In this document: piece after piece, positions 27,540-28,340 of the stretch
Position numbering within the stretch: the stretch's first letter is position 1
Layout of the letters: each line of letters begins with the position of its first letter
Assembly: GCA_900314585.1 (NCBI GenBank)
Contig: OMVV01000017.1
Coordinates: 1 to 43,018 of the forward strand
DNA from: an uncultured Erysipelotrichaceae bacterium
Lineage (GTDB): Bacteria; Bacillota_I; Bacilli_A; RFN20; CAG-826
DNA: 43,018 nucleotides
Reading direction: 5' to 3'
Made by a program: the position numbers and the translations under genes
The notes under the pieces: generated by a model
The model's database searches: none
The model's input: the letters and a program-made list of their open reading frames with translations, nothing else
Told to the model about the DNA's origin: nothing

Positions 27540-27687
27540 CTTTATTAACCTTGAAAAAATTGTGAAAAATTCTCTTTTTCATCATTGAATAATTTATGCA
27601 TTCTATATAAGATATAGTTAATTGATTGGGATGAGTATGGTTATGGAGTAATAATCATATTTTTTGTTTTACGCATCGGAGGTTCTT

Positions 27688-28047
27688 ATGTCTAACAAAA
27701 ACTAATCGCCAATTTCAAAAACAATCGAAGTCGGAAAATTTTATTTTATCCACGATGGCAGCAAAAGTGGTCATCCTGGTTATATAGTTTGGAAAGACGA
27801 GGAAAGAAATCTTTATATAGCCATAAAATTTGGCACTACAAAAAATGATGATAATGAAATTCTGAATGAACGTATTAGTCAAATAACTCCAAATTATATT
27901 TACAAACGTCTTTATGCAGGCAAAAGAAAAGATTTCGGAAAAGATGCATTATTCACTTTCCATATAAGTAATGAAATTGTAAAAAGATTTAAGGATATTA
28001 AAAAAAGAAATCTAAAATTTTCCAAAAATGTATCTAAAGCGCAATAA
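27688..28047 (+). pseudogene. Small protein gene with an in-frame stop at codon 6
   Basis: ATG 27688 has a strong GGAGG and opens MSNKN, then TAA (27703-27705). The same frame continues without a break for 113 more codons to TAA 28045-28047. It encodes a basic small protein with VGKFYFIHDGSKSGHPGY, YIAIKFG, YIYKRLYAGKRKDFGKDA and a Lys-rich tail. No start codon follows the early stop before the conserved-looking part. A single base change (for example CAA to TAA) would explain it. The short beta-rich pattern brings MazF-like toxins to mind, but I cannot support that assignment. Confidence 0.55.
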
Positions 28048-28088
28048 CATTACTTGAACAAGAACAAAGATCATGTTTTATTGGATAT

Positions 28089-28340
28089 AAAAAAATAACC
28101 GATCAACCATAAGGTTCTATCTACCGGTTACGTTTATTATTAAATCAAACAACTAAAGTTGTGTCAATAACATTAATAAAAAAATAACCGATCAACCTTA
28201 AGGTTCTACATACCGGTTACATTCAATATTCAATCAAATGACATAAGTTATGTCAATAAAAAACGTCCCGATTGAACCTATTCAGCTCTGCGTACCGGTG
28301 ACGTTAATTAAAGTTAACCAAACAACCTTTGTTGTGTCAA
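28089..28340 (-). repeat. Three tandem ~85-bp structured repeats (candidate small-RNA array)
   Basis: Three direct units (period 89 then 84 bp) fill the space up to the glycosyltransferase stop. On the minus strand each opens TTGACA-[C/T]AAC (28162-28167, 28251-28256, 28335-28340), has a small hairpin, then 17 bp after TTGACA a TTTAAT, TTGAAT or TTAACT. A second hairpin with ACCGG and its complement ends in a run of T's, like an intrinsic terminator. Outer stems are TAACCG/CGGTTA in units 1-2 and ACGTC-CCG/CGG-GACGT in unit 3, so bases differ but pairing is kept. Each unit could be a promoter plus a short RNA, or part of one structured transcript. Confidence 0.7.

Follow-up and report, generated by a model that had tools for sequence, protein, structure and literature searches.

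Tandem structured RNA genes beside a broken gene of predicted MazF fold: a probable type III-like toxin-antitoxin module of uncultured gut Bacilli

Do three short tandem repeats beside a damaged small gene represent a toxin-antitoxin system with an RNA antitoxin, and how would such a system relate to the known types? The question is raised by a stretch of 43,018 nucleotides (the window; contig OMVV01000017.1) of an uncultured Erysipelotrichaceae bacterium, in which a first-pass annotation described three ~85-bp structured units, proposed selection on their RNA structure, and likened the layout to type III toxin-antitoxin systems. The array and its neighbour were compared with related genomes, which are mostly MAGs.

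The array in the window and its broken neighbour

The three tandem units are real and lie on the minus strand (28340-28089) with start-to-start distances of 89 and 84 bp; the spans 28087-28170 and 28176-28259 are 86% identical, and the third unit is more divergent. On that strand each unit comprises TTGACA, a spacer of exactly 17 nt, a -10 hexamer, about 6 nt, a hairpin of ~40-45 nt and a run of 6-7 T, so that the annotated promoters and RNAs are distributed as follows.

27678-27682, plus strand: ribosome-binding site GGAGG of the broken toxin-like gene (from sequence)
27688-28047, plus strand: toxin-like gene, predicted MazF-fold family (ATG at 27688, stop at 28045-28047)
28335-28340, minus strand: unit 1, -35 element TTGACA (from sequence)
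28312-28317, minus strand: unit 1, -10-like element TTAACT, spacer 17 (from sequence)
28258-28305, minus strand: unit 1, predicted RNA (covariance model match 28259-28307, 61.1 bits)
28268-28298, minus strand: unit 1, core CCGGUA..AUCGG, with U-tract at 28258-28263
28251-28256, minus strand: unit 2, -35 element TTGACA (from sequence)
28228-28233, minus strand: unit 2, -10-like element TTGAAT, spacer 17 (from sequence)
28178-28221, minus strand: unit 2, predicted RNA (covariance model match 28179-28225, 53.7 bits)
28188-28216, minus strand: unit 2, core, with U-tract at 28178-28184
28162-28167, minus strand: unit 3, -35 element TTGACA (from sequence)
28139-28144, minus strand: unit 3, -10 element TTTAAT (extended TGA), spacer 17 (from sequence)
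28089-28132, minus strand: unit 3, predicted RNA (covariance model match 28090-28136, 47.0 bits)
28099-28127, minus strand: unit 3, core, with U-tract at 28089-28095
28150-28163, no strand assigned: unit 3, spacer palindrome ACAACTTTAGTTGT, candidate operator, outside the RNA
Counterpart spacer palindromes: GACATAACTTATGTC in unit 2 and ACAACAAAGGTTGT in unit 1, candidate operators, outside the RNA

By prediction from its sequence, each repeat is a very small RNA gene equipped with a promoter and a terminator of its own. Of the layout first proposed (TTGACA, hairpin, -10 hexamer, second hairpin), the promoter and the terminal hairpin stand, as does the observation that the stems differ between units with pairing kept, but the first hairpin is not part of the RNA: palindromes of the ACAAC/GTTGT type lie between the -35 and -10 elements, so a transcript from such a promoter would not contain them, and they are present in only some units. 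They are DNA palindromes, possible operators at most. Several units have different palindromes at the same place and other units have none, and the total is modestly above chance (10 of 32 units versus 2.2 expected, maximum 8), two of the ten coming from units without a promoter of their own. At some loci of relatives, genes for XRE helix-turn-helix proteins directly adjoin the RNA promoters, divergent from the RNA (L160:3137-3991, L161:3061-3936, L171:2882-3808, L173:647-868, L016:1581-1802); these proteins are candidate binders of the spacer palindromes.

The adjacent gene, already described as damaged, has a good ribosome-binding site and an ATG followed by an in-frame TAA at codon 6 (27703-27705); downstream of this stop, no further one interrupts the frame from 27706 to 28044. 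As it reads, it is a pseudogene or a barely expressed gene.

A structured RNA family linked to a protein family

The array unit belongs to a dispersed RNA family. Covariance model R1 yields 27 matches in 12 of the 24 genomes of the genus, bearing out the expectation of homologous units in related genomes, and further copies in relatives were found by DNA searches; within its own assembly the unit has no copies beyond the three in the window, by this model or otherwise. By inspection, the consensus consists of CCGGUA, a 5' bulge, an inner stem and AUCGG, flanked by a variable outer stem and the U-tract, with the core CCGGU/AUCGG invariant and compensatory changes in both the outer and inner stems. 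Covariation across 24 type A units amounts to 38 compensatory cells versus 11.3 in shuffles (0 of 500 shuffles as high) and is destroyed when pairing partners are slid. RNAalifold independently recovers the inner core and inner stem; three registers are in use in the outer stem, which, with these allowed for, averages 4.76 bp of pairing; exchanging 3' arms among the units lowers the mean to 3.11 (at most 3.88 across 1000 randomizations). Covariation is seen independently in a second RNA, type D (TGATTCG...GAATCA; 7 cells versus 0.8, 0 of 500), and the covarying helices are nested. These compensatory changes support the first-pass reading of selection on RNA structure. In genome G010, the four units pair up into two transcripts, each led by a unit devoid of a U-tract, which implies that the hairpin is not merely a terminator; together with the promoters, these units exclude the possibility that the repeats are only scattered terminator-like elements.

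Searches of the window and its relatives against Rfam returned only tRNAs (plus SRP RNA in one relative) above threshold and no family for the units; weak matches within the array, mostly to eukaryotic snoRNA or miRNA models, all lie far below cut-offs, and a PreQ1-like resemblance of the plus strand of the array has no Rfam support. The RNA at locus L166 matches the type A model at 26.5 bits, which suggests that the RNA types are homologous to one another. Further RNA types accompany clade members at L170 / L042 (G012) and L166 / L064 (G175). A YACGY motif in the 5' bulge of 10 of 31 RNA clusters (shuffled mean 2.9) was found post hoc and is not used as evidence.

The protein beside the array likewise belongs to a family. 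Homologues of the open frame 27706-28044 were found in 13 of 96 relatives by single-sequence search, and a profile search extended the family to 68 of 224 genomes of the bacterial family, with up to five members per genome, often clustered. Outside the bacterial family, members are thinly spread across the order and the class. The named records that carry the family come from uncultured Bacilli and are MAGs, several of them derived from gut samples of ruminants and other animals. A second member in the same genome (L099:2000-2264, on contig C24) belongs to a subgroup with the signature HFRIY..HPAYIVDEEGN and lies beside tRNA-like genes. The proteins are ~110-150 amino acids long, basic and lysine-rich, with a beta-barrel in the model; the histidine of a His-Pro motif is invariant across sixteen diverse members, and Gly-His-Pro and an Arg-Lys-Asp motif are conserved in the close clade.

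As the first-pass annotation had surmised of the protein family, it has no match in Pfam (including PemK), NCBIfam, PHROGs, PADLOC or PDB sequences, and 16 members gave no matches to ToxN, CptN or TenpN in Pfam, NCBIfam, PADLOC or PDB sequences. Comparing profiles with the PemK proteins found in relatives gave no significant result, and no sequence relation to MazF or CptN was detectable. No viral relatives were found in IMG/VR with three queries, nor any relatives by tblastn of one member each against plasmids and against phages. The only match in a virus to the pattern of the RNA core (L220) is due to chance, lying in a phage gene that the covariance model does not match, and weak DNA matches to phage records are short and AT-rich.

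For both the window protein and an intact relative linked to type A RNA, the AlphaFold models (pLDDT 86.7 and 91.6, respectively) have MazF/Kid at the top of Foldseek results (probability 1.00, TM 0.49-0.59) and of VIA results (Z 8.1 over 93 residues at 3.2 Å, to MazF-mt3, and Z 8.0 over 99 residues at 3.5 Å), scores that are moderate. The Foldseek E-values are only ~2e-3, and the tool warns that a Z of about 8 can reflect a common arrangement. VIA also matches the type III toxin CptN (4rmo; Z 6.9, 108 residues, 18% identity), and ToxN is not among the structure matches listed. The protein is thus predicted to fold like a MazF toxin, and its conserved Gly-His-Pro may occupy the position of the MazF Arg-Pro.

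Protein and RNA genes are linked. Nearly every homologue inspected has downstream of it a different hairpin, encoded on the other strand and preceded by a promoter of the same architecture. The convergent orientation noted in the window is thereby supported, and the association of RNA and protein is conserved in homologues. The signature of a promoter, single-domain hairpin and T-run, scored with a promoter model trained on type A/C units only, follows 54 of the 107 genes that belong to other subfamilies, against 7 of 277 controls taken at the same loci (Fisher P 5e-28, with a smaller effective sample number because the members are related, the 65 RNAs forming 31 clusters); a convergent, individually promoted hairpin RNA is ~20 times commoner after family genes than after controls. 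Spacing is equally regular: the promoter spacer is 17 nt in 58 of 65 RNAs, the T-run begins ≤12 nt from the toxin stop in 53 of 65, and in 27 of the 32 cases in which it extends into the final codons, the C terminus of the toxin is encoded by lysine codons (AAA) that form the U-tract of the opposite-strand RNA. The strict signature is missing from about half of the family genes, most conspicuously from the HFRIY..HPAYIVDEEGN subgroup beside comFA, which often runs straight into comFA with no RNA at the usual place.

In the best-sampled clade, the distribution of RNA types A, B and C tracks the toxin tree, needing no more than the minimum of two changes. In f27 genomes of the same class, a hairpin with TTGACA-17-TAAAAT, read by eye, lies upstream and divergent of the homologues, which suggests that linkage to an individually promoted RNA is conserved and orientation is not. 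At f27 loci L211, L212 and L209 this RNA, AAAAAAGGACCTGG...GACCAGG, is upstream-divergent rather than downstream-convergent. Protein and RNA constitute a module that is widespread in uncultured gut Bacilli and apparently undescribed; publications on the family were absent among the open-access papers searched, which cover the literature in part.

Decay, mixed arrays and cassettes

Within the genus, type A/C RNAs accompany an intact protein gene at four loci (G010, G013, G016 and G022) and a broken gene or remnant at three (the window, G011 and contig C10 of G004), and occur without a detectable protein gene at nine; in the A/B/C clade, every intact gene seen had an RNA next to it. This pattern, together with the mixed arrays described below, is what one would expect of harmless antitoxin RNAs free to accumulate and persist, and of a toxin that survives only with its partner. 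The window reads as a relic module, its toxin broken and three type A RNAs left. The window toxin groups with the type B-linked toxin of L160 (support 88/78) and the window array has no type B unit, so its type A RNAs may not be cognate to the toxin beside them. RNA types are also mixed after one toxin in the arrays L160, L161 and L168, the last of which adjoins an IS110-family transposase gene (L168:3344-4513).

At L087 (G206:C4:205700-208900), L088 (G207:C21) and L100 (G216:C10), toxin/RNA cassettes alternate with repeated comFA-like 5' fragments, most of which end near residue 86 of the query at the Walker A sequence GS|GKT, one full-length copy remaining. The pattern looks like repeated site-specific insertion into comFA with gene restoration; the ~700-bp cassette contains no recombinase. 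Three head-to-tail toxin and RNA cassettes at L086 (G254:C69), where an upstream leader is repeated, and at L090 (G245:C12) are another sign of cassette-like duplication.

Proposed mechanism, alternatives and known systems

From units, promoters, RNA structure, linkage and decay read in the sequence, and from the predicted fold, we infer a type III-like toxin-antitoxin system, a reading that we consider probable: a MazF-fold ribonuclease would be bound by a small structured RNA expressed from monomeric, convergent genes that abut the 3' end of the toxin gene. The protein is probably an endoribonuclease and, in light of its predicted MazF-like fold, the RNAs are probably its antitoxins. Each RNA would be a gene of its own, with a strong sigma-A-type promoter (TTGACA-17-TTTAAT), an invariant inner core, a variable outer stem and a U-tract, transcribed toward the toxin gene and ending at or beside its stop codon. 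The ~45-nt RNA would bind the protein directly and block it, like the antitoxins of type III systems. Constitutive synthesis of the RNA at a high level would hold the toxin in the bound state, from which a stop in transcription, caused for example by phage, would release it. Extra or foreign-type RNAs would gather in arrays and outlast the toxin as harmless protection. Conservation of the core in solitary copies argues for recognition by a protein.

Antisense control resembling that of type I systems is also possible, given that a toxin mRNA extended by read-through would match, base for base, an RNA encoded opposite its 3' end; pairing there could lower translation or stability with no RNA-protein contact, and convergent type I pairs are known. 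We regard it as unlikely: unusual pairing of the RNA with the toxin start region was found in 0 of 58 pairs (rank ≤0.05), solitary copies and distant tandem copies, for which there is no complementary toxin mRNA, retain the conserved core and the covarying stems, the RNA is upstream and divergent in f27 genomes, and the proteins, with their size, basic character and predicted MazF fold, are not small hydrophobic peptides. The tight linkage, the many RNA types and the mixed arrays would also suit an RNA that is a partner or guide of the protein in an effector or regulator, such as a defence complex, instead of an antitoxin; this is improbable given that the RNA persists where the protein is lost, that the MazF-like fold suggests an RNase toxin, and that a variable guide-like segment was not seen. 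Least probable is that the hairpins act as DNA elements or terminators, whether as plain terminators, as REP-like repeats or as the recombination sites of cassettes like those of integrons. In favour, cassettes recur head-to-tail every ~670 bp and some sit within duplicated comFA 5' fragments; against, the sequence of the hairpin is subfamily-specific. The terminator-only and REP versions are rejected by the matched promoter of each hairpin and the units devoid of a U-tract, and the integron or attC version by the absence of an integrase IntI (TIGR02249) above the curated cut-off in 41 relatives and of any universal crossover box on inspection.

If the toxin-antitoxin reading is true, it would add to the type III-like systems a large and hitherto undescribed family of proteins whose genes follow a different logic. 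The toxin clades and the types of RNA would form a natural set for studying the co-evolution of proteins with structured RNAs, the RNAs being very small, independent and without an Rfam family, and the mixed arrays and toxin-less RNAs resemble RNA-based immunity genes. About as likely as not is the broader claim of a new class, common in uncultured gut Bacilli, in which MazF-fold toxins would be paired with independently promoted, monomeric RNA antitoxins running head-on into the toxin 3' end, with no processing by the toxin, diversifying with the toxin clade (31 clusters) and accumulating in mixed arrays that confer immunity to related toxins on their own.

The predicted toxin fold is shared with the type II systems MazEF, PemIK and Kid-Kis, in which the antitoxin is a protein (MazE), whereas here no protein antitoxin is consistently adjacent: there is none in the window, and XRE genes occur at only some loci of relatives. 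Convergent type I modules such as Fst/RNAII and TxpA/RatA resemble the present module in having an RNA convergent with the toxin gene, but their toxins are small membrane peptides and their antitoxins act by antisense pairing.

In the AbiF/RCd22 system of C. difficile, an RNA with a sigma-A promoter and a terminator neutralizes the protein directly (PMC12373285). The RNAs described here resemble RCd22 in bearing a promoter and a terminator, and would resemble it in direct neutralization, whereas AbiF is a HEPN/Cas13-like protein and its RNA is upstream of and co-transcribed with it.

Type III systems comprise three sequence families with one common operon layout (PMC5086642), in which a single promoter serves an antitoxin array upstream of the toxin with a terminator between them (PMC5086642, PMC8860590). 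In contrast to that bicistronic operon, the RNA here is downstream and convergent (upstream and divergent in f27), each copy has its own promoter and terminator, and the terminator adjoins the toxin stop rather than separating the repeats from the toxin start in the manner of the Rho-independent terminator of type III. The RNA is often a single unit (three tandem units in the window, four in G010 and three in G011, one at many loci), processing is apparently unneeded, and no sequence match to ToxN models was found. Because the defining operon layout is not that of type III, formal membership is not claimed, and the earlier type III-like reading is retained as a similarity. That similarity comprises a small protein of MazF/ToxN-like fold (predicted here, with moderate scores) beside structured RNAs of ~35-50 nt (in tandem at some loci here), as in ToxIN, CptIN and TenpIN; RNA types that are specific to toxin clades; and an RNA length of 40-60 nt, within the range of the CptIN (45 nt) and TenpIN (50 nt) repeats (PMC12373285).
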